Below, piece by piece: positions 31,290 to 61,146 of a stretch of 64,000 bases of DNA. The first letter of the stretch is position 1. Every line of letters begins with the position of its first letter. The notes under the pieces were generated by a model, which did no database searches, was not told where the DNA came from, and saw nothing but the letters and a program-made list of their open reading frames with translations. The DNA lies in the NCBI RefSeq assembly GCF_004339085.1, contig NZ_SMFX01000001.1:248001-312000 (forward strand). Reading direction: 5' to 3'. The DNA comes from Thiogranum longum. GTDB taxonomy: Bacteria > Pseudomonadota > Gammaproteobacteria > DSM-19610. A program made the position numbers and the translations under genes.

Positions 31290-31586
31290 TTACGGGGTTT
31301 CGGCCGTGTACCTTGAGCCGTTTTTGTGAACTGTGTCGAAATATTGCAATTTGCGTCGGAAAACATCCGGGTCAACCGGCTGCAGACTATTGTTTATCAG
31401 GCTGTTTACCGGTCTGTCGGGTGCCAGTGCCGCTTCCGGATCTTTCCAGGGAACAATAAACAGCGCTTTTGGAAGTTCGCGGTTACCGATGATAGACATG
31501 CCGTCGAGGTCGAGTGTCTCTTCAGCTTGCAAGGTTGATGACGTACAAAATAACAGTATGTAAACCAGCAGCTTGATGTGCTTCAT
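31290..31586 (-). CDS. Small secreted protein of the AgmX/ExbBD cluster
   Basis: 98 residues, unrecognised. Signal peptide MKHIKLLVYILLFCTSSTLQ with cleavage near A21-E22 and no lipobox, so soluble and periplasmic after export. The mature part contains DLDGMSIIGNRELPKALFIV, which in similar clusters accompanies TPR proteins. Its start overlaps the upstream TPR lipoprotein gene by 4 bases and it ends 27 bases before the ExbB-like gene, so it belongs to the same operon. Confidence 0.65.
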   Translation of the reverse strand: MKHIKLLVYILLFCTSSTLQAEETLDLDGMSIIGNRELPKALFIVPWKDPEAALAPDRPVNSLINNSLQPVDPDVFRRKLQYFDTVHKNGSRYTAETP

Positions 31587-32191
31587 GGTGTGGTCCTCGC
31601 CTGTGCGCTACCGCTGCGGCGCTCCAGGTCCATAACCCAGCCGCTGACAGTGGTGTCTTCCCCATCCGTCAGGGAAAGGTATTTCCGGTAATGCTCAAGC
31701 GCCAGCGCAGGCTGTTGCAGATACAGGTCATACAGGATGCCGATATTGCGGTGTGCGAGGGCATAGTTCGGATCCAGTTCCAGGGCTTTTCGGTAGGCAT
31801 CGAGTGCGGCACTGAAGTCACCCTGGCTGCGGTACAAAATAGCCAGCTGGTGCCAGACGGAAGGGTTTTCGGGGTTGAGTTGCAGCGCATGATTGAGGGC
31901 ATCGGCAGCTGCGTCCTCCTGTCCGGTTAACCGGTAAGCAATACCGAGGTTCAGGTAGGGGCCGGCAAAACCGGGCTTGCTGGCGATAAAGACATTCAAT
32001 ACGGGGATGGCAGCCTGGTAGTTGCCGCTCTTCATCAATACCAGCGCATTGTCATAGTTGCGCGGCAGTTTTTGTTCCTGTTTTGCTTTTCCGTCTTCTG
32101 CAGGAGATGAGGATGTGCGCACGCTGCTGCAACCTGCAGCAAGCAAAATTAATAGAGGAACAAGCAGGGCTTTACTGAAGTACGGCAACAA
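31583..32191 (-). CDS. TPR lipoprotein
   Basis: 202 residues. Lipobox LLAAGC with C21 predicts lipidation and probably outer-membrane placement. About four tetratricopeptide repeats follow (about 48-185), for example PYLNLGIAYRLTGQEDAAAD and AHRNIGILYDLYLQQPALAL. The start is a TTG at 32191 (or the next codon TTG), with GGGGAAG upstream; there is no ATG. It overlaps the preceding large TPR lipoprotein gene by 20 bases. It is similar in layout to Myxococcus GltE/AglT, a TPR lipoprotein, but this equation is inference. Confidence 0.78.
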   Translation of the reverse strand: MLPYFSKALLVPLLILLAAGCSSVRTSSSPAEDGKAKQEQKLPRNYDNALVLMKSGNYQAAIPVLNVFIASKPGFAGPYLNLGIAYRLTGQEDAAADALNHALQLNPENPSVWHQLAILYRSQGDFSAALDAYRKALELDPNYALAHRNIGILYDLYLQQPALALEHYRKYLSLTDGEDTTVSGWVMDLERRSGSAQARTTP

Positions 32192-36826: not shown

Positions 36827-37335
36827 TCCTTGACACTGAATTCCGGTTGCTGGTTATTCGTGGCATCAACAATCCGTAATTCCACATACTTCGGTCCCAG
36901 GCCTTTTTTTATAGTCGTTGTCGAACCGCGTCGGTAATCGCGACCATGCGGCCCCTTGCCGGTAAAAAAGGCGACCAGTTCGTGTTCACCATTTTTTATG
37001 TTCCCGATATGGATACGTTGTACGCCACCGCGTATCAGCGCATCGATTTCTCGCGGTGTATACAGATAGTTGGCGACTTCCTTGCCATCCAGTTTTACAG
37101 AAACAGAATCGAGCTGGAAAAATGTTCCGACATCCATGGACAGAAAGACCGATACCTGGGTGTTGGATGGGAAAAGCAATTCTTCTTCCAGCAGGAAAAG
37201 ATCACGATTGAGTTCAAGCACCTGTTTTTTCAGATTCTGGACATCTTCCTGCATACCGGTCGGCTGTTTTTCAGCCAGCACCACCAACGGCCAGGCCATC
37301 AGGCCGGCCAGGATTACACCTAACAGTGATTTCAT
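36820..37335 (-). CDS. Exported coiled-coil/beta protein, first gene of the AgmX cluster
   Basis: 171 residues. Signal peptide ends at VVLAEKQ. Residues about 28-52 form a short heptad coil (MQEDVQNLKKQVLELNRDLF), then a beta-rich domain (VSVFLSMDVGTFFQLDSVSV; GGVQRIHIGNIKNGEHELVA). I do not know a function. Being first in the run of overlapping genes and export-competent, it probably belongs to the same envelope complex. The 273 bases upstream to the apbE stop should contain the promoter. Confidence 0.65.
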   Translation of the reverse strand: MKSLLGVILAGLMAWPLVVLAEKQPTGMQEDVQNLKKQVLELNRDLFLLEEELLFPSNTQVSVFLSMDVGTFFQLDSVSVKLDGKEVANYLYTPREIDALIRGGVQRIHIGNIKNGEHELVAFFTGKGPHGRDYRRGSTTTIKKGLGPKYVELRIVDATNNQQPEFSVKEW

Positions 37336-37608
37336 AACGCCCTCCTGCGGCGTTGCGGAACTATGCGCATACGTGCACGCGAGTATCGCGTTTATCTATG
37401 GCTGATTTCTGATACAGGGTTCACAGAAAGGCTGTGTATTTCGACACAGCTGGCCCGGAACTTGTCCCTGTCATGAATTGATAAAGCAAGGTCTGTACCA
37501 TGTAGCCGGAAAGCTTGCTTTGCGCGGTATCAGGCAGATTTCTGTCTCATTTGGGCGACAGACAGGGGAGAGAAGGAATGTGTAGCGTCCCTGGACATTT
37601 TCCCGTCT

Positions 37609-38622
37609 TCAGGGGGCTACGGCTGGTGACGGTCCATTGACGCCGGAGTGCAGATTTCTGGCAGGTTCAAGGTCATTTGAATAGTGCAGGGCGCCGTGAT
37701 TATCGACCAGAATGGCATCGATACCTGGCAGACGGTTAATCAGCTTCATACCATCCTGCAGTCCAAGCACAAATACACTGGTGGACAGGGCATCAGTGGT
37801 GGTGGCGTCGCTACCAATAATAGTGGCACTTTGCAGTTCGCGGGCCGAGTCTCCGGTACGTGGGTTGATGATGTGGTGATAACGGACACCATCCCGCTCA
37901 AAAAAGCGTTCGTAATCACCGGAGGTGGAAACAGCAACGTCGACCAGAGGGATGACTGCTACAACACCTTCGCGGTCCCGGGGATCACGAACACCGATGC
38001 TCCAGGGGCGACCCCAGCGTTCACCCGAGACACGACTGTCACCGCCGGCGCGCACCAGGGCGTTGTGTATATCCAGTTGTTCCAGCAGCTCCATGCAGCG
38101 GTCAACGGCATAACCTTTTGCAATTCCACCGAGGTCGATTCGCATGCCGGATTTTACAAAATGTACTGTCTGCTGTACCTCGTTGAGCTGCAGCTGGTGA
38201 TAATTGACCAGAGTCGTGGCCCTGGCGCGCTGCTCATCGTCCGGGCGGATACCTCTGCGGTAATCGTAGAGGTATCCGACACTGGCAAAGGTGATATCAA
38301 AGGCGCCATGGGTCAAGGTCGATACCCGGTTTGCGCGTCGTAGCAGCCGGAACAGTTCAGCGCTGATTTTTACGGGCTGCTGTGCTGCCTCCCGGTTGAC
38401 AAGCGACAGTTCGCTGCTGTCGATGAAGGGACTCATTGCTGCATCGATCCGCCGCATTTCTGCCAGCACGGTTTGCACACCTTGTTGTGCGACAGCCGGG
38501 TCCTGATGGTAAAGCTCGACAACGATGCGGGTTCCCATGATATCCGCTTCTTTTTTCAGCCAGCCGGCCATCCCGTTTGTCGAGAATAGCAGGGTGACGA
38601 CCAGGCAGAAGAAACATCGCAT
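37609..38622 (-). CDS. apbE: FAD:protein FMN transferase (ApbE)
   Basis: 337 residues from the ATG at 38622; a TTG 30 bases earlier is less likely because MRCFFCLVVTLLFSTNGMAG is a complete signal peptide. ApbE covalently attaches FMN from FAD to a Thr/Ser of periplasmic or membrane proteins. Seen: MGTRIVVELYH, IDLGGIAKGYAVDR, RAGGDSRVSGERW, the Mg/FAD segment YHHIINPRTGD and the TTTDALSTSVFVLG motif. No lipobox, so periplasmic. Last gene of TlpA-DUF4266-DUF3570-ApbE; its flavin-accepting partner is not evident here. Confidence 0.93.
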   Translation of the reverse strand: MRCFFCLVVTLLFSTNGMAGWLKKEADIMGTRIVVELYHQDPAVAQQGVQTVLAEMRRIDAAMSPFIDSSELSLVNREAAQQPVKISAELFRLLRRANRVSTLTHGAFDITFASVGYLYDYRRGIRPDDEQRARATTLVNYHQLQLNEVQQTVHFVKSGMRIDLGGIAKGYAVDRCMELLEQLDIHNALVRAGGDSRVSGERWGRPWSIGVRDPRDREGVVAVIPLVDVAVSTSGDYERFFERDGVRYHHIINPRTGDSARELQSATIIGSDATTTDALSTSVFVLGLQDGMKLINRLPGIDAILVDNHGALHYSNDLEPARNLHSGVNGPSPAVAP

Positions 38623-38632
38623 GGGGTGAGCG

Positions 38633-39775
38633 TCAGTACCAGATTGAGGCAAACGCCTGGATCACGCTGGCCGAGAATTCGTAATCTGGCAGACTCGAGT
38701 CTGACAGGTCGGTGAAGTTGTCATATTTAAACAGAATGTAGCTGTACTTGAGGTTAAGCGTTGTTTTGTCAATAAAGCCGCGTTTCCCGCCGGGCAGGTC
38801 ATAACTTACGCCAAGGCTGATGGTATGGTCTGTGAACTGGCTGAGCTCTTTGTCGCGCGCCTTGAAATTCTGTGCATCTGCACGCGGAAAAAAGTCCGCA
38901 TAGAATTCCGCTTCTGACTGGGTATAGAAGCGGTAGCCTGTCTCGAATATCCAGTGCTTTCCGAACGGGTGTACATAGGCCAGTTCGGCGGTGTGCGCAG
39001 CGATATCCCAGTCGTCGGCATAGTAGCGATAGCCGGCCTTGATGGTTGCGCGGTAGGGCAGGTAGTACAGAAAATTGGCAGATACAGCATTGCTGGTACG
39101 CGTATTGGGGTAGGCTTCAGGTTCAAAGCCAATACCTGAAGGTGTACTGGTGTCCAGGAACGCAACTGACCGATACGGGTTGTTCAGGAAGCCTTCGTCA
39201 GTGACTGCATCATAGTTCAGGCTGAGTAAAAGGTCCCTGGTCAGAACCTGGGTGAGTGACATGTGGTAGTTCTGGTGATCGGCAGTTTCGGAAAAACTTG
39301 TGTCCCCGTTACGGAACACATCATCAAAACCGCGTGAGTAACCCAGGTTGACGGTGGTCATGTTGCCGAACAGGGTCTGGGAGAAAGTGACACTGTAGGT
39401 GTCGGCTTTATAGTCACTTTCCTCGCTGTTGGTATAAGCCAGTGACATGGTTGTGTCGGCGTGAAGGTAATCGAGACCAACCGAATACTGGTCGCGGCTC
39501 TCGGAGTATTCACTGCCCTGGGTAACGACGTCGATAGATGCACTGCTGATGCTGTCTGCGTAGTAGTTGGCGCTGGCGGAAAAGCGTTTTGCATCACCCT
39601 TGCGTACCAGAATTGACGGGCCGGTAACGGTGACGCCGCCGCCATCATAGGAATGGTAAAGGGCATCAGCACGATCCTCGGGGAGGATGGCGCTATGTGT
39701 CAGTGCCGGCAGTAGCAGCAGTATTGCGGCGATCCGGTGTCGCCATGCTCTAGTTGCAGCCACAGCCGCCTCCAT
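38633..39775 (-). CDS. DUF3570 predicted outer-membrane beta-barrel
   Basis: 380 residues from the ATG at 39775; a longer frame begins at a GTG (39850) but that part is the overlapping DUF4266 gene. Signal peptide MEAAVAATRAWRHRIAAILL, cut after THSA. The mature chain alternates polar and aromatic residues as in barrels (TMSLAYTNSEESDYKADTYS; LLLSLNYDAVTDEGFLNNPY) and ends in Trp-Tyr. DUF3570 proteins occur with DUF4266, TlpA and ApbE; function unknown. It overlaps the DUF4266 gene by 26 bases and stops 10 bases before apbE. Confidence 0.8.
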   Translation of the reverse strand: MEAAVAATRAWRHRIAAILLLLPALTHSAILPEDRADALYHSYDGGGVTVTGPSILVRKGDAKRFSASANYYADSISSASIDVVTQGSEYSESRDQYSVGLDYLHADTTMSLAYTNSEESDYKADTYSVTFSQTLFGNMTTVNLGYSRGFDDVFRNGDTSFSETADHQNYHMSLTQVLTRDLLLSLNYDAVTDEGFLNNPYRSVAFLDTSTPSGIGFEPEAYPNTRTSNAVSANFLYYLPYRATIKAGYRYYADDWDIAAHTAELAYVHPFGKHWIFETGYRFYTQSEAEFYADFFPRADAQNFKARDKELSQFTDHTISLGVSYDLPGGKRGFIDKTTLNLKYSYILFKYDNFTDLSDSSLPDYEFSASVIQAFASIWY

Positions 39776-39980
39776 GCCCGCCTTCTGCGCCACGCGCACC
39801 TTCCCTGACCTGGTAAATGTGACCGTTATAGGCGCTTGATACAGGGTCACGGCTGAAACTCATGATCGGGTCAGCCAGATGAGTCCTTTCGTAGGGTTTT
39901 ACCCATGGTTCGATACCACTACATCCTCCAAGCAGGATTAGCAGGCAAGCCATGGTCAGCATTCGATTCACAGTTTTCAT
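39750..39980 (-). CDS. DUF4266 small lipoprotein with C-terminal Gly/Cys motif
   Basis: 76 residues. Lipobox LLGGC with C20. The short mature chain holds EPWVKPYERTHLADPIMSF, a conserved DUF4266 core, and ends in GGHGGGCGCN; the His and two Cys in a glycine run are invariant-looking and suit metal binding or a thiol modification. It overlaps the TlpA gene by 4 bases (ATGA) and the DUF3570 gene by 26. Function is unknown; neighbours suggest a redox or thiol-linked role at the outer membrane. Confidence 0.82.
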   Translation of the reverse strand: MKTVNRMLTMACLLILLGGCSGIEPWVKPYERTHLADPIMSFSRDPVSSAYNGHIYQVREGARGAEGGHGGGCGCN

Positions 39981-40489
39981 TCCCTGATCAGTTCACGTAC
40001 CTGCTGCTGGTACTGTTCCTCGTAGCCCGGCTTGTAACCGTGATGCAGGTAACGCATATTTCCATCCCGGTCTACGAGTATCGATGTGGGCATGGCGACA
40101 ACATTATACAGCTTGCTGACCGTGCTTCGTGTATCAAGCATGATCGGGAAGCTGACTGGAATGTCCTCCAGCATGGAGAGTGCCTTGCTGCTGTCCTCTT
40201 CGACATTAACGCCCAGTATGGTGAAGCCAAGGGGCTGGTACTGGGTATAGAGTTCTTCAAGCAGCGGCATTTCCTGGCGACAAGGTGCGCACCAGGATGC
40301 CCAGAAGTTAATCATGACAACTTCACCGCGGTGTTCACTGAGGCGGGTGTTTTCTCCGCCCGATGTTTTCAGTGCGAAGTCGGGTGCAGGTCCCTGTGGC
40401 GCGGCAGCCTGTAGCTGGCCAGAGACCAGCAGCAGCCAGCCCATGAGCGGCAGTGCGAGGAGTTTTATACAAGCGTTTTTTGATTTCAT
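39977..40489 (-). CDS. TlpA-like periplasmic thioredoxin
   Basis: 170 residues from the ATG at 40489, chosen for its GGAG 6 bases upstream; a GTG 27 bases earlier is possible. Signal peptide ends near LQAAA. Thioredoxin/AhpC-TSA fold with active site WCAPC (C67, C70) in MINFWASWCAPCRQEMP, and the cis-Pro region VVAMPTSILVD. Likely a reducing or disulfide-handling protein; the natural clients are the two Cys of the adjacent DUF4266 lipoprotein, by inference. First gene of the four-gene ApbE module. Confidence 0.9.
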   Translation of the reverse strand: MKSKNACIKLLALPLMGWLLLVSGQLQAAAPQGPAPDFALKTSGGENTRLSEHRGEVVMINFWASWCAPCRQEMPLLEELYTQYQPLGFTILGVNVEEDSSKALSMLEDIPVSFPIMLDTRSTVSKLYNVVAMPTSILVDRDGNMRYLHHGYKPGYEEQYQQQVRELIRE

Positions 40490-40629
40490 ATCAATCTCCA
40501 AATTCTTCATATGCACGGTAGTAGCGGCCGGACCATGACGGGGTTAAGCCATGTCGGGCCGTTGTCGCACAGGCGATGCCGTGCAGTTTCCGTGAGCCAT
40601 GCCCGCCGTAACAGGGCATAGCTCACAAA

Positions 40630-41283
40630 TCAGAAAAATATTGACAGGCCTCCGCTGAATTCCAGGTTGTGCGTAGTACGTTTTTCGCCCAGCAGATCCA
40701 GGTCAAAAACATGATCACGGGCATCGACGCGCAGTGCCAGCCAGTCATTCAGCAGCACCTTGTAACCGAAGCCTGCGTTCCATGTCAGCATGTCATCGCC
40801 GGCAAAGCTGGTACTGCCGATACCGCCAATCACGAAGAAGGCAGAGGTAAAGGCCCAGCGCTTACCAATGAAGGATTCGCCAGGGAGAATATTGAAGCCG
40901 AACGACAAGTTGTAGTAGTCAAGATCCCTCTCATCGTCAGTCAGGATTTTTGCGGCACCACTGAGACGTTCGAAACTGGTTTCTCCGCCACGGGTTCTGG
41001 CGTATGCGCCTTCAAGGAATATATCCTCGGTGACGTGATAGGTTGCACGGATGCCATAAATCGGGTTGGAGCCAAAATCTTCTATGCTCATTATGCCGGC
41101 CCAGGCACCGACTTCGAAGTCTTCTGTGTCAATGGCATCTTCGTGTACTTCGCGACGTTTGATTTCAGGTTGTACTACCTGGTCATCACTGGCGGCGAAA
41201 ACGGCGGGAGACCAGGCGGGCGCCAGAAGTATGCCCAGGCCAAGTGCTGTATTCAGAAAAAGACGGACAGTCCGGCTTGCCAT
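40630..41283 (-). CDS. Outer-membrane beta-barrel domain protein
   Basis: 217 residues. Signal peptide to about FAAS (residue 32), then a charged region (QPEIKRREVHEDAIDTEDFE) and an eight-stranded-type barrel: VGAWAGIMSIEDFGSNPIYG, AYARTRGGETSF, YYNLSFGFNILPG, ending with GGLSIFF (C-terminal Phe as outer-membrane insertion signal). It shares strand patterns and ending with its neighbour (41253-42035), suggesting duplication. Similar barrels accompany AgmX/ExbBD clusters. Overlaps the neighbour by 31 bases. Confidence 0.8.
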   Translation of the reverse strand: MASRTVRLFLNTALGLGILLAPAWSPAVFAASDDQVVQPEIKRREVHEDAIDTEDFEVGAWAGIMSIEDFGSNPIYGIRATYHVTEDIFLEGAYARTRGGETSFERLSGAAKILTDDERDLDYYNLSFGFNILPGESFIGKRWAFTSAFFVIGGIGSTSFAGDDMLTWNAGFGYKVLLNDWLALRVDARDHVFDLDLLGEKRTTHNLEFSGGLSIFF

Positions 41284-42035
41284 TCGTTTATCTCCTGGTT
41301 GTCATCGGTGCTCTGAAAGATAAGGTAGTTCTTGTATTGTGCGCGAAACATAAATTGCCTGGTAAGGTAGACACGGACGCCGACGCCGACGTGGGCGAGT
41401 TGGTCAATGCGGTCGCGTTCCTGGACCAGGGTGGTTTTAGGATTTGTCCGGATAATGCCTGTTCCAACAGTGAAAAACGGCGAAATGCGCCATTCCGGGA
41501 AAGGGTGGATCAGCAAACCGAGGTTAGCCATTTCTGCATCTGAAAAAGGAGAAAACAGTTTGGAGGCAGACAGCTCTGCGGATAGATTGGGTGTGAACGA
41601 ATAAGCACCATAAAACGTCATGACGTCGGCACCCTCGAAGTCTCCACCCATGGCACCTGTTTCCAGGCGGTGAAATGAAAACTCCTCGAAAGTGGCATCG
41701 CGGATTTCGGTATTTTCGCCGGCTGGCGTCAGGGTGTGTTCCAGTTGCTCTCTCGCTACCCAGCCCTGCTTGCCTTTGCGGGTGCGTACCTTGAACCAGT
41801 CTGTTTTACGTTTGAGTATTTCAATCCATTCCCCCTGCTCCTCGACGTGAAAGACGGGGTAACCACGCCCTGCGCCGGTATGTAACTCGATGTAGGGGTC
41901 GGCAATCTGGACTTCCATTGGCTGATCATCGCCAAACAGGCGACTGAATATATCCGCTGAAGCACAGGCTGGCAGCAGGAAGATCCAGATAAACAGAAGG
42001 CTGGAGAGTGTGCGTAGGTACGCGGCAGATTTCAA
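41253..42035 (-). CDS. SH3-domain plus outer-membrane beta-barrel protein
   Basis: 260 residues from a TTG at 42035 (AGGG 7 bases upstream; no in-frame ATG). Signal peptide MKSAAYLRTLSSLLFIWIFL cut near ASA. Bacterial SH3 domain (about 42-105): PYIELHTGAGRGYPVFHVEE and GKQGWVAREQLEH, a fold that often binds peptidoglycan. The C-terminal barrel (about 125-260: VMTFYGAYSFTPNLSAELSA) ends GLSVFF. So one end may hold the wall and the other sit in the outer membrane. Probably the first gene of the barrel pair; 54 bases downstream of the HzsA-like gene. Confidence 0.8.
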   Translation of the reverse strand: MKSAAYLRTLSSLLFIWIFLLPACASADIFSRLFGDDQPMEVQIADPYIELHTGAGRGYPVFHVEEQGEWIEILKRKTDWFKVRTRKGKQGWVAREQLEHTLTPAGENTEIRDATFEEFSFHRLETGAMGGDFEGADVMTFYGAYSFTPNLSAELSASKLFSPFSDAEMANLGLLIHPFPEWRISPFFTVGTGIIRTNPKTTLVQERDRIDQLAHVGVGVRVYLTRQFMFRAQYKNYLIFQSTDDNQEINEWQAGLSVFF

Positions 42036-42089: not shown

Positions 42090-44726
42090 TCATGGTGGTA
42101 CGTCAAACGGATTATTGTAGTATTGGGCACCGATATCCAGCCATTCGGCAATCAGTTTCAGCTCTGCCGTCGTAAGCCGCCCGGCGTGTGTTCCGCCAGG
42201 AGCGAAAATATTGAAAAAGCGTGGGCTGGACAGTGCACCGGCAGCGCTCATTGGCGGACTTGCCGGAATAGTAACCATGACGGGGATCGGGTTCCCGTTC
42301 ACATCAAGAATCTGGTTGCCATTCTGGTCGAGCAGAAACAGGGGATTGCCGTTGCCGTCGGTCGCCTGGACCAGTGTGTCGACCAGGTTGCCCATGGCGT
42401 CCAGCTCCTGCACATTGTCGCCGAACAGCAGTTCCCGGTAGGACTTGAAGTGATTGGCATTCTGGTCAGAGATACCATCGGTAAGGTCCAGTTGTGCATC
42501 CGGAATGCGGTCAGCACCCGCCATATCGGCATTGGTGTGGCAGTTGATGCAGGTGTCTACGGGACCACGATCAACCCCCCAGATCGGGTGGATGCCGGTT
42601 TCGTAGTTGATGATGATTCTGCACAGGTAGTTCCAGTTACTCTGGCAATTAGTACTGGCCGGTGCCGTGACAACCGGATCAAGGTCGGCATAGAGGTAGC
42701 TGAAGCTGGTGTCCTTCAGCCGGCCGGAAGCGACTTCATCGGTCCACACATCGTCATAAAAGATATCAACTGAGGGTGTCAGTGCGGTGGGATCAATGCG
42801 AGTTCTGGCCTGTGCCATGGTATCGCCTGCATCAGCGAAAAAAGCGGCTTCCGTATTGGGGAAGGTGTAACCATCAAAGGGGGCGCCGGTGTTAAGTGGT
42901 GCAAAGGCATTCGGGTTCCCGTGTGACATACCGCTTGCAGGATCGTGGCAGCCCGAGCAGTTCATAACTTCACCTGCCCGTAGTTGCAGCCAGTTATCGT
43001 GTCGTTGGCCAATACGGCGGCCTTCCTTGTCCAGCACGCTGATCGTGAAGGGGACATTGGCCGGGACTTTTACGCGTACCGAGCCATCCGGTTCAATGGG
43101 CGCGTAGCCCAGTATTTCACGCATGCCGAGTGAACGGTTGGGGCCGAAGTTGGCGCCCATCAGGTTGACAATAGTGTCGTCAGGCAGGCTGACGGCCTTG
43201 ACCAGCCTGAGGAAACGCGCCGGGCGCTGGTCAGCCAGTATTTGCTGGGGGTCTGCCAGCATGGAAAGATCAGCTGCCGGGCCGCCGAGCGCGTTGTACT
43301 GGCTGTCAAAGTCATACACGCTGGCAATGTGCAGTATGCCGACATTTTCATCAACCAGAACCTGGTCGACGTCGACACCGGGGACGGCATCAAAAACAAT
43401 AGTCGGCAGAGTTCGCGGCTGGGTAGCTACTACATCGCGGTAAAACATGCCTTCCTGCGGTGTAAATACCGGACGCTGGGTATTGTCGCCAAAATCATAC
43501 AGGTAGACGCTGTACAGGGGAGGGGCTTCAAGCAGTGCAGGATCTGCAATTGTCTGGTCAGTGCAGGGCAGGATCAGCGTGCCATCTGTCATGCGACACT
43601 GGCTCCATGTGATCAGTGCGCGATCAGTGCCGTCCCATAGCGGGTAGAAGGTATTGAAGCGCCCGGCCGGTGACGGCTGGTCATCGGTACGAACTTCACC
43701 AAAGCTCCGCGATACTTGTGCAGGACCCGCCAGAGCGCCCAGGTTAGCGGACGTGGGCTGGGTGTTTTCAACGTAATTGTTGACGTCGATAGCGACAATA
43801 TCGCCACCCTGGTTATTGCCAGTGAAGGGTTTGATAAGTACGGCGATTTCACCATCCGGTAATTCACGCGGCTGGAGAAACTGGATTGTTGCCCCATTGG
43901 TGCCGGTGTCATGACTTGCAGCGCCATATAACAGGCGTAGCTGGCTGCCGTCCGGGTTCATTTTGTACAAATTGATGGCGCTGCTGTTTCCTGCGTTGTC
44001 CCAGCGCGAGAAAACGATCTCCCCGTTTGTTAACACAATCGGGTCAAGGTCGTGGCTCTGGTTGAATGAGACCTGGGTAATGTTCTGCCGTATTTCATCG
44101 ATAATATGTAGAACCATTGCCGGCTCGTTCTCGTCTTCATCAAGTGCGGCGAACTGGGGCTTGCCTTCATCGATAAGTATGGCGCCGGCAGCGCGCTGGC
44201 GTGTTGACGAGAAAATAATGCGATTGTCCGGGAGGTAGTGTGGCGCGACATCCTGTCCTTCCTCGGCAATGATGTCAGATGCGATAACCCGGCTCAGTGT
44301 GTCCGTGGCGATTTCATATTCCCACAGGTTCCAGGTTGGCTGGTCCTCCGGGTCTGCGCCCTCGATATCCGGGAGTCGCAGCGCAAACAACAGGCGCGAG
44401 CCGTCAAAGGAAGCCTCGACATCCTTGACATCGCCCATCCCGCCAGTGACGCGTTCGGTAATATTGCGTTCCTTGGCAACCGGTGATGCAAGATCCCGGT
44501 AGATCAAGTCTCCGCCAGCCTGGAAGGTGGCGGGTTCGCGTACATCGGCAGTATCCATTTCCGGTACGGGCTGCCTGACGTAGGCAATGCCGAAGTCCTC
44601 GACAAGCGGGTCGGGACCAGCGGAGCTGGTGCTTTCACCACCACCACAGGCCGAGAGCAGCATTGCCACCATAAGGGAGGCAATACGACGGTTCAGCGGC
44701 GATTTTATCGGTGACCAACGGGGCAT
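42090..44726 (-). CDS. HzsA-related lipoprotein with beta-propeller and two haem c sites
   Basis: 878 residues from the ATG at 44726 (GGGAG 6 bases upstream; an earlier in-frame start is less likely). Lipobox MLLSACGGG. The N-terminal two-thirds look like a propeller (VEASFDGSRLLFALRLPD; HDLDPIVLTNGEIVFSRWDN), as in hydrazine synthase alpha. Two CxxCH haem-binding motifs: CSGCH (about 590) and CINCH (about 726). HzsA-related proteins occur in many non-anammox bacteria, where their job is unknown; no HzsB/HzsC is seen here. A periplasmic or outer-membrane redox enzyme is inferred. Diverges from the three-gene cytochrome operon. Confidence 0.82.
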   Translation of the reverse strand: MPRWSPIKSPLNRRIASLMVAMLLSACGGGESTSSAGPDPLVEDFGIAYVRQPVPEMDTADVREPATFQAGGDLIYRDLASPVAKERNITERVTGGMGDVKDVEASFDGSRLLFALRLPDIEGADPEDQPTWNLWEYEIATDTLSRVIASDIIAEEGQDVAPHYLPDNRIIFSSTRQRAAGAILIDEGKPQFAALDEDENEPAMVLHIIDEIRQNITQVSFNQSHDLDPIVLTNGEIVFSRWDNAGNSSAINLYKMNPDGSQLRLLYGAASHDTGTNGATIQFLQPRELPDGEIAVLIKPFTGNNQGGDIVAIDVNNYVENTQPTSANLGALAGPAQVSRSFGEVRTDDQPSPAGRFNTFYPLWDGTDRALITWSQCRMTDGTLILPCTDQTIADPALLEAPPLYSVYLYDFGDNTQRPVFTPQEGMFYRDVVATQPRTLPTIVFDAVPGVDVDQVLVDENVGILHIASVYDFDSQYNALGGPAADLSMLADPQQILADQRPARFLRLVKAVSLPDDTIVNLMGANFGPNRSLGMREILGYAPIEPDGSVRVKVPANVPFTISVLDKEGRRIGQRHDNWLQLRAGEVMNCSGCHDPASGMSHGNPNAFAPLNTGAPFDGYTFPNTEAAFFADAGDTMAQARTRIDPTALTPSVDIFYDDVWTDEVASGRLKDTSFSYLYADLDPVVTAPASTNCQSNWNYLCRIIINYETGIHPIWGVDRGPVDTCINCHTNADMAGADRIPDAQLDLTDGISDQNANHFKSYRELLFGDNVQELDAMGNLVDTLVQATDGNGNPLFLLDQNGNQILDVNGNPIPVMVTIPASPPMSAAGALSSPRFFNIFAPGGTHAGRLTTAELKLIAEWLDIGAQYYNNPFDVPP

Positions 44727-45168
44727 GTGTTTCTCCCGGAATTTCTGTGGATTAAATTTTTCATTCTCTGAGCACATATTTAATGCAATTATCGGGCCGG
44801 ATCCTGGCTGTTAAGCCTGCACGTAATTGTCCGTTTATGTGGCCTCAGTTCTTGCGGTGCCGGGCCTGTCCTGTCGTGTGGTGCCGACACCGTCTTCATA
44901 TAGCTACAGCCGGTCGATACAGTGGTATTGGCAATATAGCCAGTCATCCCGTAAGGAAACTGAGACGTCTGTCACACTCCCGGGAAATTAATTTTAATTC
45001 CTGATCAGGGGGTTAAATGGACTGGAGGTTTTGCCGCTAAGTGAGAACTGTTTCACAGTTGTTATAGAACCCGTGGTCTATATTGCGATCACAAGGGCGT
45101 AGAACCGGGGTGGTTCGGTAATTGCTTGGAGCAGGACTGGATAAAACCAAACTTGAAGGGGCGTCTCA
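44727..45168. other. 442-base divergent promoter region
   Basis: Between the HzsA-like gene and the plus-strand cytochrome operon; no gene was found. It should hold both promoters. AACTGTTTCACAGTT (45046-45060) is an inverted repeat that could be an operator for the plus-strand operon, and TATATT at 45079-45084 could be a -10 box, but no -35 at the right spacing is convincing. AT-rich stretches lie near 44748-44790 and 44990-45000. Confidence 0.4.
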
Positions 45169-46398
45169 ATGTTTTTGACGTGCGAACAACAACAGAATAC
45201 GGCTTGGGGTAAGGGGGCGGCGAGTTTTCGCGGCATCCTGATCATATTTGCCCTTACGGCATGCGCAGCCTCATCGGCGTTTGCAGGTGATGCTGAGCGT
45301 TTGCAAGCGAAGCGAATTCATGACCGCCTGACCGGCGTGCCACCAACACCTGCAGTCCTGACGGCAATGGAAGCCGAGATTACCGGGCCTGGTGGTGCTG
45401 TCGATGCTGCAATTCTTGCTATTGATCCTGCGCGTAACCCTCGCGCTTTCAATTTTTATAATACGACGCTGAAGAATTTTGCGACGCCGTGGACAAATGA
45501 GGCGCAATCGGTCTTTGATCCGCTGAATGATTACACGGCGACCGTAATAGGAATGATAAGGGATGATGTTCCTTTTAATACCCTGCTTTCTGCAGACACG
45601 GTATATGTTGGTGATAGCAGTATTTCCGGTGTTTCAGCCTATTCACCTTCTGATAATACGCATTACGAGAACCTGGAAGACCTGAGTGTCGACCTGAGTG
45701 ATACGTCCAACCTGTTTCCGGTATCCCAGTCGGTCCAGAACAGTATTCCGGTTGCGGGTGTGGCGGGCATTATGACGACCCGCGCTGCCGCGCAGGCCTT
45801 CTTTATTGACGGTACCAACCGCGCAATGTTCCGCTTCACTATGCTGAATCATCTCTGCAATGACCTGGAGCAGGTAAAGGATACGACACGGTCGGCAGAC
45901 AGGGTTCGTCAGGACGTCAGTCGGAGTCCGGGTGGTGACAGTCGCCTGTTTCTCAATGCCTGCGTCGGTTGTCATTCCGGCATGGATCCGATGGCTCAGG
46001 CATTTGCCTACCACAACTACGATGAAAGCCAGGGCAGGATGGTTTACACACCCGGCCAGGTACAACCCAAATATCTCATCAATGCCGACAATTTTGAGTA
46101 CGGTTACATAACGCCTGATGATCGGTGGGACAACTACTGGCGCAGTGGCCAGAATGCGGTACTGGGCTGGAGTAGTGGTCTCCCTGGAAATGGTAAAGGT
46201 GCGGCATCATTGGGGCAGGAGCTTGCAAACAGTACTGCTTTCGCAGGCTGCCAGGTCAGGAAGGCCTACCGCACAGTGTGTCTGAATGAGCCAAGTCAGG
46301 CACAGATGGTTGCTTTACGAGACGTGTTGACCAACCAGACCAACTACAACATGAAACAGGTATTCGCCGAAGCCGCTGCCCAGTGCGCGGGCAACTAG
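45169..46398 (+). CDS. Secreted monohaem cytochrome-like protein
   Basis: 409 residues. N-terminal export signal (GILIIFALTACAASSAFAGD) with cleavage near SAFA. Early segment RIHDRLTGVPPTPAVLTAME resembles the RL-x-GxPPT start of planctomycete-type cytochrome proteins (DUF1549 class). One CxxCH: CVGCHSGMDPMAQ at about 265, followed by AFAYHNYDE. Two further Cys near the C-terminus (GCQVRKAYRTVC) may form a disulfide. The specific family is not certain. First gene of an operon with the LamG lipoprotein (24 bases on) and the DUF1501-like protein; all three are exported. Confidence 0.68.
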   Translation: MFLTCEQQQNTAWGKGAASFRGILIIFALTACAASSAFAGDAERLQAKRIHDRLTGVPPTPAVLTAMEAEITGPGGAVDAAILAIDPARNPRAFNFYNTTLKNFATPWTNEAQSVFDPLNDYTATVIGMIRDDVPFNTLLSADTVYVGDSSISGVSAYSPSDNTHYENLEDLSVDLSDTSNLFPVSQSVQNSIPVAGVAGIMTTRAAAQAFFIDGTNRAMFRFTMLNHLCNDLEQVKDTTRSADRVRQDVSRSPGGDSRLFLNACVGCHSGMDPMAQAFAYHNYDESQGRMVYTPGQVQPKYLINADNFEYGYITPDDRWDNYWRSGQNAVLGWSSGLPGNGKGAASLGQELANSTAFAGCQVRKAYRTVCLNEPSQAQMVALRDVLTNQTNYNMKQVFAEAAAQCAGN

Positions 46399-46422
46399 GC
46401 GGTCACAGGTGAGGGGATGATT

Positions 46423-48984
46423 ATGAGCACGTATTCGAAAAGTGTGCGATGGGGTTACATGTCTGCTCCTGGCAGGGTGTTCCGTCAGATTGCGGTACTG
46501 ATGTCAGTGGCTATTCTTTCCGCCTGTGGTGGTGGTGCCGAGACAAGTTCAAACCCGCAGACAAGCAATGGTGGATCTGTGGGTGCATCCAGCTATACCG
46601 GTCCTGTTGCCCAGACGACGGATATTCGGGAGTTTCAGGTCAATGTCTGGGAGCCATTGCGGGCGTCAAACCGTTGTGGAGCCTGTCATGTGCCTGGTAT
46701 TCAGTCGCCTACGTTTGTACAGCAGGACGATGTTAACCAGGCATATGCTGAAGCTACACCGCTCGTGGACCTGGATGTACCGGCCAGTTCACGCCTGGTG
46801 ACCAAGGTTGCCGGGGGGCACAATTGCTGGCTGACCAGTGATGCGGCATGCGCAACCATCATTCAGAATTATATAGAAGCATGGGCAAATGGCGTGTCAG
46901 GCGGACAACGCGAGATCCAGCTGACCGCGCCGGTCATAAAGGATCCGGGAGCAACGAAAAACTTCCCGGGGACTTCGTCGGATTTTACCGCAACAGTATG
47001 GCCTCTGCTTACAGCAAACTGTGCCGGCTGTCATGTGGACTCATCTCCGACAGCACAATCCCCCTTCTTTGCAAGCCCGGTTGCTGACGATGCCTATGAG
47101 GCTGCCAAATCCAAGATGGACCTCAATACGCCTTCTAACTCGCGGCTGGTCGTGCGTTTGCGTGATGAAGCGCATAATTGCTGGACAGCCAGTTGTGCAA
47201 GTGATGCAAGTGATATGCAGGCTGCTATTACAGCATTTGCCAATACCGTTTCACCAACAGTCGTAAACCCCTCGCTGGTTATCAGCAAGGCGCTGACAGT
47301 GGGGGATGGCGTGGTAGCAAGCGGTGGCAGTCGTTACGAATCAGATGTGATCGCCCTGTACGAGTTCAAATCCATGTCTGGTAACGTAGCCATCGATTCC
47401 AGCGGTGTTGAGCCTGCATTACACCTGACACTCACCGATGCTAACAGCTGGGTCGGTGGTTGGGGTATCGAGCTTGGTAACGGTCGACGTGCCCAGGGTT
47501 CAACCACGGCGAGCAAGAAATTGAGCGACCTGATCAAGGCGACGGGTGAATATTCCATCGAAGCCTGGGTTGCGCCGGCCAACGTGACGCAGGAAGGTCC
47601 CGCACGGATCGTTAGTTACTCGGCGAGCACGACTGCACGCAACTTTACGCTGGGTCAGACCCAGTACAATTATGACTTCCTGCAGCGATCGAGTACGACG
47701 GACGGAAATGGTGAGCCGGCACTGTCAACGGCTGATGCCGATGAGGATCTGCAGGCTACTCTGCAACACGTGGTTGTGACTTTCGACCCGATCAATGGGC
47801 GACGGATTTATGTCAATGGCGTATTTACCGATGACATGGATCCTGTTACGCCGGGTAACCTGACGGAGTGGGATGATACTTTTGCGCTCGTGCTCGGAAA
47901 CGAGGTATCCGGTGACCGCCAGTGGGCCGGACAGATTCGTATGCTGGCCATTCACAATCGCGCGCTCACCCAGGAACAGATCCTGCAGAACTTCGATGTA
48001 GGTGTCGGTGAGAAGTTCTTCCTGCTGTTTTCCATTGGGGATGTGATTGCCTTGCCTGACAGCTACATTGTATTTGAAGTTAGTCAGTACGATTCATACA
48101 GCTACCTGTTCAGCAAACCCTTCTTCATCAACCTGGATCCGGCAATAACGCCTTCCAGTTTCCCGTTGCAGGCTATGCGAATCGGAATCAATGGCCGCGA
48201 GGCAACGGTTGGTCAGGCATGGAACAATCTGAATACGGTTATTGGCGGCGCCGGTTATGACCCGCTGACGGGCCAGGTATTGTCGGATCGCGGTACTATT
48301 ATCGCACTTGAAAACGGCCCGGCCTCGGATGAGTTCTTCCTCACTTTCGAGCAGCTGGGTTCGCAGTCGAATGCGTTTACCGAGAATTCACCGCTGACAC
48401 CACCTGATCTGGCACCGCCGCCGGTTGTGTCCGGGATCGGTGTGCGCACCTTTGACGAGGTTAATGCCAGCATGGCATCACTGACCGGTGTTGCCCCGAC
48501 GGTCGTGCAGTCAAGCTTCCAGACGCTACGGCAACAGCTGCCGGCAGTGGAAAGTCTGGATGGCTTCCTGTCTGCACACCAGATGGGGATTGCGCAACTG
48601 TCTATAGAGTATTGCAGTGCTCTGGTTGATGACCCTGCATTACGCAGTACTTTCTTTGGTGCCTTTGGATTTACGCAGGATGTCAGTACAGCGTTTGGTT
48701 CAGGTGATTCTCCTGCGAAAAACCAGGTTGTGAATGCGCTGTATGACAAGATGATTGGACTGGCAGAGGGCGCCAGCAATGATCTGCTCGATGCGCCAAC
48801 GCGGGATGAAGTCAAGACCGAACTGATTGGTTACGATCTTGGCGGTGCGCTGGCAAATACCAATAACCTGTTCGATCGACTGACATCAGCCTGCCCTGCC
48901 GGTTGTGATGTGGCGCGAACACAGGCAATTGTCAAGGCAATGTGCGGGTCGGCGCTGGCCAGTGCCGCAGTTCTGGTTCAATAG
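46423..48984 (+). CDS. LamG-domain lipoprotein with duplicated haem-binding modules
   Basis: 853 residues from the ATG at 46423, which has GAGGGG 6 bases ahead; ATG 46417 is immediately adjacent to that site and so less likely. Lipobox VAILSACGGG. Two similar modules follow, each with CxxCH then HNCW: CGACH at about 85 and CAGCH at about 200. A LamG/concanavalin-like domain (about 305-530: VIALYEFKSMSGNVAIDSSG; EYSIEAWVAPANVT) could bind carbohydrate or protein. The C-terminal part (about 620-853) is unrecognised. Likely an outer-membrane or surface cytochrome that works with the HzsA-like protein. Confidence 0.75.
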   Translation: MSTYSKSVRWGYMSAPGRVFRQIAVLMSVAILSACGGGAETSSNPQTSNGGSVGASSYTGPVAQTTDIREFQVNVWEPLRASNRCGACHVPGIQSPTFVQQDDVNQAYAEATPLVDLDVPASSRLVTKVAGGHNCWLTSDAACATIIQNYIEAWANGVSGGQREIQLTAPVIKDPGATKNFPGTSSDFTATVWPLLTANCAGCHVDSSPTAQSPFFASPVADDAYEAAKSKMDLNTPSNSRLVVRLRDEAHNCWTASCASDASDMQAAITAFANTVSPTVVNPSLVISKALTVGDGVVASGGSRYESDVIALYEFKSMSGNVAIDSSGVEPALHLTLTDANSWVGGWGIELGNGRRAQGSTTASKKLSDLIKATGEYSIEAWVAPANVTQEGPARIVSYSASTTARNFTLGQTQYNYDFLQRSSTTDGNGEPALSTADADEDLQATLQHVVVTFDPINGRRIYVNGVFTDDMDPVTPGNLTEWDDTFALVLGNEVSGDRQWAGQIRMLAIHNRALTQEQILQNFDVGVGEKFFLLFSIGDVIALPDSYIVFEVSQYDSYSYLFSKPFFINLDPAITPSSFPLQAMRIGINGREATVGQAWNNLNTVIGGAGYDPLTGQVLSDRGTIIALENGPASDEFFLTFEQLGSQSNAFTENSPLTPPDLAPPPVVSGIGVRTFDEVNASMASLTGVAPTVVQSSFQTLRQQLPAVESLDGFLSAHQMGIAQLSIEYCSALVDDPALRSTFFGAFGFTQDVSTAFGSGDSPAKNQVVNALYDKMIGLAEGASNDLLDAPTRDEVKTELIGYDLGGALANTNNLFDRLTSACPAGCDVARTQAIVKAMCGSALASAAVLVQ

Positions 48985-49003
48985 AGAAACGGGGAATCCT
49001 AAA

Positions 49004-50608
49004 ATGGCTAAACGTACAAAAAACCTGAGTCCCGACGAACCGCTCTATCATCAGGACCATTCGCGCCCGGTAACGCGTCGTGATTTTCTGCGCCAGGGCT
49101 TTATCTCGGGTACCGGCATGGTCATGGGCGGCTCCATTTTCAGCCTGTTTTCCAACCCACGCATGGCGCAGGCTGCACTTTCCTCAGATCTGACCACGCT
49201 TGCGAGTAGCATCGGGTGTTCGCTCGGCGGAATAGGCGGTGGAAAAATCCCCTTTATCTGCTTTGATCTGGCGGGTGGTGCGAATATATCCGGTTCCAAT
49301 GTGCTCGTTGGTCGCAACACGCAAATGGATTTTTTGACTACTGCCGGTTACAGCAAGCTGGGCTTGCCAGGGGATATGATACCGGGTGGCGTGGAAGCCG
49401 CAGCAACAGCCACCAGTAATGGTGACTTTACGGATACAACATTGGGGCTGGCCTTCCACTCTGACAGTGCTTTTCTGAGAGGTATCCTGGAAAAGGCGGG
49501 CGGTCGCGGCCCTAACATTAATGGCTGTGTCATTCCGGCGCGTTCCGATAATGACACCGGCAACAATCCGCACAACCCGATGTACGGCATTGCTGCTGCA
49601 GGCGCAGCAGGGGGAGTGGTGACGCTGGTCGGATCACGCAACTCGGATTCCGGCGGTAATTCCATGTCGCCGGCGAATATGATTAACACAGAAGTTCGCC
49701 CGACCAAGGTGGATCGCCCCAGTGATGTAACGGGTATGGTGGATACAGGAAATCTGACCGGCATACTCAGTGATCCCGCAGATGTTGTCGCCGTTATGGA
49801 GTCAGTTGCACGTATCAGCAACAGCAAGCTGGGCTGGGCAAATACCGGTCTTGCAGGAACAATCAATACGGGCGCGGATGCTGTCGTCAAGGACCTGGTG
49901 CGCTGTGGTTACCTCAAGGCGGCTGATATCGCTGAACGGTTTGCGGGTGTGAACATTGACCCTTCCCTTGATGGCGATATTGTTGACGGGGCCGACCCGG
50001 CCAATCCTGCGCAGGGTATCTTTACTGCGGCTGAATTTAACGGTGACGGTGAATTCCGTAAAACCGCTTCGGTCATGAAAATGGTAGTCGATGGTCACGC
50101 CGGTGCGGGTACCATCGCAATGGGTGGTTACGATTATCACACCGGCGACCGTAGTACAGGTGAACTTCGTGATCTGCGTGCAGGACGTTGTATGGGCGCC
50201 TGCCTGGAATATGCCGCACGTCGTGGTGTGCCACTCATGATGTATGTGTTCAGTGATGGCTCATTGGCCAGCAACGGTACCGTTGATAACAGTGTTGATG
50301 GGCGCGGCAAGGGTGTCTGGACCGGTGATAACTCATCGACCGCAGCCTCTTTCTTCCTGGTCTATAACCCCAATGGCGCAATACCGGCAATCAGGCAGCA
50401 GATTGGCTACTTTCGTGCAGACGGGTCGGTCGAGACGACATCCAGTCCGGCAGCAAACAACGTCAACCTGCTGGTCGAGACACTAATCCTGAATTACATG
50501 TCACTGAATGGTGATCGCGCAAACTTCGGTAATCTGTTTACCGGTTTTGGTAATCCGCCCAGTGCTGCGTTCCTGGACACACTGACGGCTTTCAATACAC
50601 TGACCTGA
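49004..50608 (+). CDS. Tat-exported DUF1501-like protein
   Basis: 534 residues from the ATG at 49004 (GGGGA upstream; the frame is open earlier but overlaps the previous gene). Twin-arginine signal RPVTRRDFLRQGF with a following hydrophobic stretch ending near RMAQAA, so it is exported folded. GGYDYHTGDRSTG and VFSDGSLASNGTVDNSVDGR recall DUF1501 (alkaline-phosphatase-like) proteins, which pair with DUF1549-type cytochromes in other phyla; the match is distant. It could bind metal or a cofactor before export. Last gene of the operon; a 20-base gap to comF follows. Confidence 0.65.
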   Translation: MAKRTKNLSPDEPLYHQDHSRPVTRRDFLRQGFISGTGMVMGGSIFSLFSNPRMAQAALSSDLTTLASSIGCSLGGIGGGKIPFICFDLAGGANISGSNVLVGRNTQMDFLTTAGYSKLGLPGDMIPGGVEAAATATSNGDFTDTTLGLAFHSDSAFLRGILEKAGGRGPNINGCVIPARSDNDTGNNPHNPMYGIAAAGAAGGVVTLVGSRNSDSGGNSMSPANMINTEVRPTKVDRPSDVTGMVDTGNLTGILSDPADVVAVMESVARISNSKLGWANTGLAGTINTGADAVVKDLVRCGYLKAADIAERFAGVNIDPSLDGDIVDGADPANPAQGIFTAAEFNGDGEFRKTASVMKMVVDGHAGAGTIAMGGYDYHTGDRSTGELRDLRAGRCMGACLEYAARRGVPLMMYVFSDGSLASNGTVDNSVDGRGKGVWTGDNSSTAASFFLVYNPNGAIPAIRQQIGYFRADGSVETTSSPAANNVNLLVETLILNYMSLNGDRANFGNLFTGFGNPPSAAFLDTLTAFNTLT

Positions 50609-57611: not shown

Positions 57612-57686
57612 TGAAATGAGTTGCAGGGTTACAAAACAATAATTTTTCGAGATTCAGGTTCAGGATTTGGAAGGAGACACAGTGGT

Positions 57687-58814: not shown

Positions 58815-58836
58815 GGGCCGTGGAGGAGAAGAAGTA

Positions 58837-60408: not shown

Positions 60409-60420
60409 GTGTAGTAGTGG

Positions 60421-60451
60421 CTCCGGGCAGTGTCACTATGGCTGCCCGGAG
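60421..60451 (+). other. Stem-loop between ctaD and the small oxidase gene
   Basis: CTCCGGGCAG (60421-60430) pairs perfectly with CTGCCCGGAG (60442-60451), an 11-base loop between. There is no T run after it, so it is not a full terminator; it may protect the 3' end of the ctaD message or lower expression of the assembly genes that follow. Confidence 0.6.
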
Positions 60452-60466
60452 TTCAAAGGAAGTTTT

Positions 60467-60580
60467 ATGAATGAGCAAGGCATGAGTAAACGCGCACGTA
60501 TTATGGCAGTAATGCTTGGCATGATAGCCGTTGTGTTGTACTTCGGTTTCATGTGGCTTACCGCGAACGGATCCCTGTAA
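60467..60580 (+). CDS. Small membrane protein of the oxidase operon (37 residues)
   Basis: A 37-residue frame with AAGGAAG upstream of the ATG, ending directly at the start of ctaG. Basic N-terminus (MNEQGMSKRARIM) then one helix (AVMLGMIAVVLYFGFMWLTA). Tiny single-helix proteins at this place between coxA and ctaG are annotated as cytochrome oxidase small assembly proteins in other proteobacteria. The good ribosome site and zero gap to ctaG support a real gene. Confidence 0.72.
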   Translation: MNEQGMSKRARIMAVMLGMIAVVLYFGFMWLTANGSL

Positions 60581-61123: not shown

Positions 61124-61146
61124 TACTATTTAAAGAGGATGCTGGA

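Follow-up and report, generated by a model that had tools for sequence, protein, structure and literature searches.

The Thiogranum longum locus and the systems it resembles

In Myxococcus xanthus the AglRQS motor serves two related machines of the cell envelope, Glt and Nfs (PMC3169522, PMC12288465). A review describes how the machine, once engaged, unmasks CglB, an adhesin that is a lipoprotein, and how a spore-coat polymer is moved by the Nfs version (PMC12288465); GltA and GltB have been described as paralogous barrels (PMC4488436). The 2011 paper on Glt evolution (PMC3169522) takes the core complex of gammaproteobacteria to be functional, though of unknown function, and places gltA and gltB only in Myxococcales and Bdellovibrionales. 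Here we describe a locus of Thiogranum longum in which such a Glt-like cluster adjoins flavin and haem genes. It occupies positions 28629-50608 of the window, that is, of the whole 64-kb stretch of DNA analyzed, and consists of 19 genes in three putative operons. Gene calls and coordinates follow the numbering of the window, and the evidence comes from sequence, profile and structure-model comparison.

The other two gene sets also have described relatives. Flavinylation was shown for a Chlorobium protein of the DUF3570 family in a passage of PMC8238504. For the alpha subunit of hydrazine synthase (HZS), sections of a 2025 paper report that its top structural hits include no protein of confirmed function (PMC12758564).

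Operon (a), the Glt-like cluster, codes for the conserved protein p171, three tetratricopeptide repeat (TPR) proteins, ExbB, two ExbD proteins and a TonB-like transducer with an AgmX/PglI C-terminus. Operon (b) joins ApbE, DUF3570, DUF4266 and thioredoxin-like flavinylation genes with two paralogous outer-membrane barrels and a HzsA-like lipoprotein, and operon (c) is a divergent trio of a cytochrome, a LamG protein and a protein of apparent alkaline-phosphatase-type fold. The leftward reading continues past HzsA on the same strand through the SH3-barrel, the TIGR04565 barrel, TlpA-like, DUF4266, DUF3570 and ApbE genes, and after ApbE, still on this strand, come nine genes from p171 to the TonB-like transducer (28629-37335). 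A preliminary description had taken HzsA and the trio for a complete surface redox system; they are about a fifth of a locus that reaches left to 28629.

We tentatively read the locus, with a probability of about 0.45, as coding a Glt/Nfs-like envelope machine whose outer-membrane part would carry a flavin-haem redox complex. Each module is known separately, and what appears to be new is their joining in one locus, a machine of putative Glt/Nfs type with a built-in redox part. No paper describing this union was found in the open-access literature, most subscription journals lying outside the search, and no characterized pathway matched, as the preliminary description had supposed. The union is not mentioned in the passages and terms searched in the flavinylation (PMC8238504) and Glt evolution (PMC3169522) papers, and the available text of the former has no mention of hydrazine, DUF1501, gliding, ExbB, ExbD or TPR.

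Like the Agl-Glt and Agl-Nfs systems of M. xanthus, the locus has a TolQ-like and two TolR-like proteins, an AgmX/PglI transducer and TPR proteins, and like Glt, with its GltA and GltB, it has a pair of paralogous small outer-membrane barrels. It differs from these systems in having flavin and haem genes built in, in a transducer that lacks the FHA domain of GltG, and, compared with Glt/Agl, in that half of the HzsA genomes read outside the host family have no motor genes next to the TPR genes. The side-by-side ApbE, DUF3570, DUF4266 and thioredoxin-like genes recall the flavinylation systems of PMC8238504; unlike in those systems, DsbD is coded outside the cluster, elsewhere in the host genome.

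The HzsA-like lipoprotein and its redox neighbours

The four open reading frames of the preliminary description, HzsA, ORF2, the LamG protein and ORF4, were all recovered at their places (Table 1). The middle domain of the HzsA-like protein matches PF18582 with 59.1 bits against a cut-off of 26.6, and its sole PDB match at E up to 1 is HZS alpha (5c2v), which bears out the relationship first claimed. The AlphaFold model (pLDDT 88) superposes on 5c2v_A by propeller, middle domain and C-terminal haem domain (VIA-align: Z 33.9, rmsd 3.6, 599 aligned, model residues 59-895, 20% identity). The second-best fold match, E. coli TolB, covers the propeller alone (Z 26.5 over 272 residues); other propellers stand at Z of about 22, so this likeness may be one of shape only.

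Cys44, His593, the CxxCH motifs at 607-611 and 743-747, and His864 are invariant in all 37 aligned HzsA sequences, Cys44 being the cysteine of the lipobox LSAC. Between the sigma-54-type site upstream of the gene and the listed start there are only 6 bases, so a later start of translation is probable, at codon 18 (near 44726), just before the lipoprotein signal. Full-length relatives nearly always have two CxxCH motifs. In the relative from locus L093 there is one, the second motif being altered in spacing, and one distant group has a third motif at the C-terminal end, whose domain resembles the haem domains of the LamG protein (hhalign 85-97, no unrelated cytochrome serving as control). This likeness may be that of a common small cytochrome domain.

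HzsA keeps the first haem motif and the three-domain fold of 5c2v. It differs from that protein in being a lipoprotein with no beta or gamma partner among the 19 genes, and its neighbourhood differs from the beta-gamma and FG-GAP neighbourhoods given for clades I-IV in the relevant part of PMC12758564. The identity of a hydrazine synthase was considered and rejected. The Tyr591-type ligand of haem alpha-I should stand four residues after CxxCH, and none of the 37 sequences has a Tyr in the 8 residues after the motif, a lack shared with other non-anammox homologues in the pages of PMC12758564 that treat them. Moreover, the NCBIfam equivalog model of hydrazine synthase gives 48 bits against a cut-off of 800. 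Profile scans, which covered the 19 genes and not the remainder of the genome, named no family like HzsB or HzsC. Since the tyrosine ligand is absent throughout, the protein, judged from its sequence, is not a hydrazine synthase. The host genome (2.9 Mb, one contig) contains a single HZS_alpha match.

Two other loci have a small exported lipoprotein with CxxxCH or CxxxxCH ahead of the barrels; in L066 (9726-10250) it adjoins HzsA, and in L074 (9290-9796) it occupies the position of HzsA. A plasmid search with HzsA returned only partial matches of 23-27% identity in Bacteroidota (records H1-H4), three of the four annotated as SUMF1/EgtB.

DUF3570 of the locus belongs to a lower-scoring group of this family. 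It has two candidate ApbE sites, SSAS at 102-105 and TQGS at 110-113, and S113 is present in at least 95% of 45 sequences. ApbE adjoins p171 even where HzsA lies elsewhere (L102, L104, L106). The SH3-barrel and the TIGR04565 barrel are paralogues (hhalign 96.95, E 1.3e-10; controls gave at most 3.7 against TlpA and p171 and at most 6.8 against DUF3570).

As for the trio, the preliminary description had named it a cytochrome/LamG/DUF1501-like operon, and the first two names hold. Among 34 relatives of ORF2, 22 match DUF1585 (best E 1.6e-7) and 15 match DUF1588 (best E 0.025), E values of up to 1 being accepted, and ORF2 of the window itself matches DUF1588 alone (E 0.11); these profile matches suggest that ORF2 is related to both families. 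One CxxCH is found in every full-length relative. The LamG protein has its lipobox LSAC at Cys37, and its relatives usually have two CxxCH motifs, some one and a single protein none. The two haem domains of this protein are related to each other (hhalign 99.6). G063 and G231, whose HzsA is of the three-haem type, have a LamG with a single haem domain that most resembles the second one of the usual two, and G055, which has both types of HzsA, carries one LamG of each kind.

ORF4 has no CxxCH in relatives and shows an RR Tat motif, with Arg58 and Arg59 invariant in 33 sequences. With the motifs of HzsA, ORF2 and LamG, this agrees with the original count of three CxxCH proteins, one Tat substrate and two lipoproteins. 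The label DUF1501 had to be rejected for ORF4, as homology is detected neither by Pfam (PF07394 in 0/33 members) nor by hhalign (probability 1.4% in a comparison with five genuine DUF1501 proteins). Compared with the planctomycete-type PSCyt/PSD plus DUF1501 sets, relatives of ORF2 match DUF1585/DUF1588, and ORF4 is not detectably DUF1501. The phosphatase fold proposed for ORF4 agrees with its model, which appears to be of alkaline-phosphatase type (best match 3q3q: Z 12.1 over 244 aligned residues, rmsd 4.7). All 50 rows listed in this fold search fall at Z of 10.7-12.1 and comprise phosphatases, sulfatases, phosphodiesterases, phosphoethanolamine transferases and mutases, which belong to the alkaline phosphatase superfamily; Foldseek alone gave a best E of 0.02. 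Translation of ORF4 probably starts near 49004, later than the opening of the reading frame at 48905.

Linkage, motor genes and promoters

The gene-neighbourhood check suggested in the preliminary description was run on 229 genomes of the class, in which absences from fragmented assemblies (e.g., G086, G111, G204) may be assembly gaps. The numbers of genomes with each gene were 34 for HzsA, 30 for the cytochrome, 33 for LamG, 32 for the Tat protein, 36 for the barrel and 50 for p171, our marker for the Glt-like cluster. The LamG set includes matches to the LamG domain only (G041, G103, G226) and one weak match (G054), and the Tat-protein set one weak partial match (G020); none was removed. The four genes first described do co-occur in other genomes, HzsA being accompanied by the Tat protein in 29 of 34. 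Its tie to the barrel (32/34, Fisher 2.5e-32) and to p171 (33/34, Fisher 4e-26) is tighter, which argues against the completeness of the four-gene set. The cytochrome always occurs with the Tat protein (30/30), as does the barrel with p171 (36/36). With one genome per family (161, a set inferred from handle numbers, G020-G179 being taken as one family each as seen in the listed rows), 22 carry HzsA; the barrel accompanies it in 21 of them, and p171 likewise in 21.

In the host family, sampled by 20 genomes (an order-level search returned the same 20), 15 carry the HzsA-like gene. In ten of the 14 family stretches read, the trio and the barrel-flavin side are both present. The exceptions are L026 with the trio side only and L033 and L037 with the barrel-flavin side only, all three cut, and L028, which has only the barrel-flavin side and an HzsA interrupted by a run of N. 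One family member, G002, lacks all six searched genes (HzsA, the trio, barrel and p171) at 99% completeness.

Outside the family, 32 HzsA loci were read, in stretches that did not exceed 20 kb and in many cases stopped at the end of a contig. The counts in these stretches are 31 for the SH3-barrel, 30 for the TIGR04565 barrel, 28 for DUF3570, 27 for DUF4266, 26 for TlpA, 20 for p171, 18 for the trio and 10 for ApbE. In seven distant loci with 33-36% HzsA identity (L066, L068, L069, L070, L072, L078, L080) the order HzsA, SH3-barrel, TIGR04565 barrel, TlpA, DUF4266, DUF3570, p171, TPR is kept, L070 being without TlpA and DUF4266. From these counts and the co-occurrence, HzsA, barrels and flavin genes thus appear to form a tight unit, with p171-TPR as the usual neighbour and the trio as an often-linked satellite. 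The trio is located elsewhere in the genome in, for example, G063, G094, G221 and G231. In the one-contig genome G053 the trio is intact, the HzsA-like gene is present in two truncated pieces, and barrel and p171 are missing. The pieces lie at 8435-10255 of locus L103, apparently with a repeated element on both sides (986-1258 and 16995-17288, by eye).

The TonB-like transducer exceeds the cut-off of the AgmX/PglI C-terminal model (Table 1). Against the GltG model it matches by its C-terminus (44.5 of 650 bits) and against GltJ by residues 19-311 (33.6 of 450 bits), both below cut-off, and TonB_C is its only match in a Pfam scan, which found no FHA domain. The likeness of the TPR genes to GltC, GltD and GltE was judged from models, place and type, and that of the barrels to GltA and GltB from the paralogous-pair pattern, no Myxococcus sequences being compared. 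The small gene s98 follows the TPR genes in most, not all, of the loci that reach that far.

The motor genes (ExbB, both ExbD and the TonB-like gene) lie directly after the TPR genes in all three family genomes whose stretch reaches them (G000, G009, G019) and in 13 of 26 HzsA genomes outside the host family. Eleven of these have all motor genes (G033, G062, G067, G144, G149, G155, G157, G172, G175, G185, G202), and G063 and G064 were counted from ExbB alone at the edge of the stretch. The count leaves out G053 (no cluster), G086, G095, G204, G205 and G231 (stretch cut or not extended) and 11 family genomes. Clusters that lack HzsA (L114, L115, L116, L117, L123) keep all or the first of the motor genes, and the same is seen in L076 and L118, where HzsA is lacking and barrel genes are present. 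The p171-TPR arrangement without motor genes next to it is displayed by loci L136, L138, L139, L141, L142, L144 and L146-L149. The use of p171 as a marker of a complete motorized core was dropped, given that a motor stands beside the TPR genes in only half of the genomes outside the family.

GG-N10-GC elements of sigma-54 type occur in the window upstream of HzsA, the cytochrome and p171. Taken singly they are within chance, the window having 30 sites of score 10 or more where 19 sites of score 10 and 4 of score 11 are expected per 64 kb, so only conservation at the three operon starts counts. In host-family loci a site of at least 10/13 is present at 7 of 12 HzsA starts (0.90 expected), 10 of 11 cytochrome starts (0.84) and 10 of 10 p171 starts (0.86), the expectations coming from order-1 Markov shuffles on family loci L024-L037; 12 other gene starts in the same test had 0-2 sites each. 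The divergent region around these sites aligns poorly. Neither a sigma-54 activator motif in the window (simple pattern) nor a sigma-70 promoter or terminator in the divergent region (scan) was found. This pattern indicates that the three operons share putative sigma-54-type promoters, in the host family only.

To the right of the trio follow a ComF gene and then bioB and bioF, the last two named by eye. A few kb beyond the biotin genes, at 57621-64000, the translations read by eye point to genes of an aa3-type cytochrome c oxidase. A contig scan named two close relatives of the host, the metagenome-assembled genomes of Thiohalobacter sp. and Thiogranum sp.

Table 1. Genes and putative promoters of the T. 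longum locus, in window coordinates
Feature	Position	Strand	Evidence
TonB-like transducer, AgmX/PglI C-terminal domain (GltG-like)	28629..29573	-	NF033768 74 bits, cut-off 40
ExbD/TolR-like	29582..30088	-	PF02472 62 bits
ExbD/TolR-like, second copy	30085..30618	-	PF02472 53 bits
ExbB/TolQ proton channel (AglR-like)	30615..31262	-	PF01618 105 bits
s98, small protein of Glt-like cluster, exported by eye	31290..31586	-	no family match
TPR lipoprotein (GltE-like)	31583..32191	-	GltE model 51 bits, below cut-off 225; lipobox
TPR lipoprotein, 927 aa (GltD-like by place/type only)	32172..34955	-	TPR families; YbgF model 118 bits over 90; lipobox
TPR protein, 624 aa, exported by eye (GltC-like by place/type only)	34952..36826	-	weak TPR matches; conserved order
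p171, conserved, exported by eye	36820..37335	-	in 50/229 genomes; no family match
Putative sigma-54-type promoter (GG-N10-GC), p171-TPR-motor operon	37485..37501	-	score 10/13
ApbE, FAD:protein FMN transferase	37609..38652	-	PF02424 285 bits
DUF3570, predicted flavinylated protein; start probably later	38633..39850	-	PF12094 143 bits
DUF4266 small lipoprotein, C-terminal GGGCGCN	39750..39980	-	PF14086 82 bits
TlpA/ResA-like thioredoxin-fold protein (WCAPC)	39977..40516	-	PF00578 99 bits
Outer-membrane barrel TIGR04565 (OMP_myx_plus)	40630..41283	-	162 bits, cut-off 60
SH3 domain + outer-membrane barrel	41253..42035	-	PF13505 and SH3_3 over cut-off
HzsA-like lipoprotein, 895 aa: propeller, HZS-alpha middle domain, C-terminal haem domain, 2 CxxCH	42090..44777	-	PF18582
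Putative sigma-54-type promoter, HzsA operon	44784..44800	-	score 11/13
Putative sigma-54-type promoter, cytochrome/LamG/Tat operon	45110..45126	+	score 10/13
ORF2, exported mono-haem protein, 409 aa, probably DUF1585/DUF1588-related	45169..46398	+	family matches among relatives; one CxxCH
LamG lipoprotein, 855 aa: two tandem haem domains + LamG/ConA-like domain	46417..48984	+	PF13385 78 bits
ORF4, Tat-exported, apparent alkaline-phosphatase-type fold, 567 aa	48905..50608 (probable start ~49004)	+	RR motif; fold match

Possible roles of the locus

If the locus codes a Glt/Nfs-like machine with a redox part, the HzsA-like protein would be the haem part of a conserved envelope system and would act as an ordinary c-haem electron carrier or enzyme. 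The thiol and flavin genes imply extracytosolic electron transfer, as proposed for such clusters in part of PMC8238504, and since the haem lipoproteins are predicted at the outer membrane, a path for electrons outward from the periplasm is plausible. Electrons might pass between the periplasm (thiols of DsbD or TlpA, or periplasmic cytochromes) and the outer membrane by way of FMN on DUF3570 and the haems of HzsA and LamG. A Glt-like part hints that components of the outer membrane are assembled, displayed or moved, and here these would be the components of the redox complex. Power would come from the proton-motive force through the motor genes of the locus or through a motor coded elsewhere, as Nfs borrows AglRQS. 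LamG and the protein of alkaline-phosphatase-type fold may bind or process a surface polymer.

Several observations weigh against this interpretation. Thirteen of the 26 HzsA genomes outside the family (G055 in its second copy, G075, G083, G094, G096, G099, G146, G197, G211, G215, G221, G222, G223) have no motor genes within 5-14 kb past the TPR genes, other parts of these genomes not being searched, and in G055 and G197 the large TPR gene is likewise missing at that place. A motor coded in trans is possible by analogy, and thinkable because AglRQS serves both machines in Myxococcus. The p171 cluster occurs without HzsA in 17 of 50 p171 genomes, and the five of these that were read (L114-L117, L123) keep motor genes amid neighbours that look ordinary by eye. 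HzsA and p171 are separated in G094, G185, G197, G221 and one of the two G055 loci, and in G062 and G202 p171 is 11-18 kb from the nearest trio gene. The Tat protein does not reach the cut-off in five HzsA genomes (G075, G144, G175, G205, G211), and it is matched without HzsA in three others (G020 with its weak partial match, G054, G119). Outside the family the sigma-54-type sites are mostly missing at these starts, and the few present, e.g., in L086 and L101, stand at a different distance. No single protein has more than three haem motifs, the second candidate site of DUF3570 (TQGS) does not follow [S/T]GA[S/T], and surface exposure, haem loading and flavinylation in the locus are predictions. 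Besides, co-occurrence is also expected if the block is inherited or transferred whole, and linkage by itself does not prove a physical complex.

One could suppose instead a Nfs-like machine for handling polymer, which would move or pack a surface polysaccharide, with LamG binding it, ORF4 trimming it, and the haem, flavin and thiol proteins sensing redox state or driving maturation. The closest studied paralogue of Glt, Nfs, does handle spore-coat polymer (PMC12288465, PMC3858216; paralogy in PMC3169522), and the trio offers a LamG/ConA-like domain and an apparent alkaline-phosphatase-type fold. We consider this supposition rather unlikely, as profile scans of the 19 genes found no family that makes or exports glycans, mere sensing would hardly call for five conserved haem sites and FMN besides, and 5 of 34 genomes have HzsA without LamG and without the Tat protein.

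Another explanation dispenses with the motor: DUF3570, HzsA, the cytochromes and the barrels would form an electron-transfer or respiratory chain of the outer membrane, to which p171-TPR would be a scaffold or a mere neighbour with a separate role. The finding that motor genes are linked in only 13 of 26 genomes outside the family strengthens this explanation and weakens that of a Glt/Nfs-like machine, and the same direction is indicated by the clusters without HzsA and by the several genomes in which the two lie apart. On the other side stand the presence of p171 in nearly all HzsA genomes and in all barrel genomes, the gene order kept in distant families, the promoter type common in the host family to all three operons, including that of the motor, and the paralogous barrel pair of GltA/GltB kind within the redox operon. 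A chain without motor seems rather unlikely to us as well.

A stronger form of the preferred reading would be a motor-coupled surface redox organelle, in which a machine of Glt/Nfs type, driven by the proton-motive force, presents or drags flavin- and haem-bearing lipoproteins of the outer membrane against a solid or polymeric substrate, the redox work outside the cell being mechanically coupled. We regard it as speculative and unlikely; if it were true, gliding would have arisen from such a use of the core complex, be it the ancestral use or an alternative one.

Acquisition of iron or another metal, by extracytosolic reduction coupled to ExbBD/TonB-like uptake, might be suggested by the ExbB, ExbD and TonB-like genes and by the VIT1 iron transporter in 25 DUF3570 clusters mentioned in PMC8238504. 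It is quite unlikely, since neither a family of TonB-dependent receptors nor one of metal permeases turned up in the profile scans of the 19 genes and the transducer is of AgmX/PglI kind. Finally, a nitrogen enzyme like hydrazine synthase, to which the PF18582 match and the superposition on HZS alpha might point, is hardly credible with the tyrosine ligand missing in 37/37, an equivalog score far below cut-off, no HzsB/HzsC-like family among the 19 genes, and key residues missing also in the other non-anammox homologues treated in PMC12758564.

A Glt/Nfs-like machine with a flavin-haem part suggests that three open problems, the gammaproteobacterial core complex, the non-anammox homologues of HZS alpha and the flavin gene set, may be one system in a gammaproteobacterial group. 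If so, mutants of one module should resemble mutants of the others, and the locus could link surface redox chemistry with a machine of motility type.

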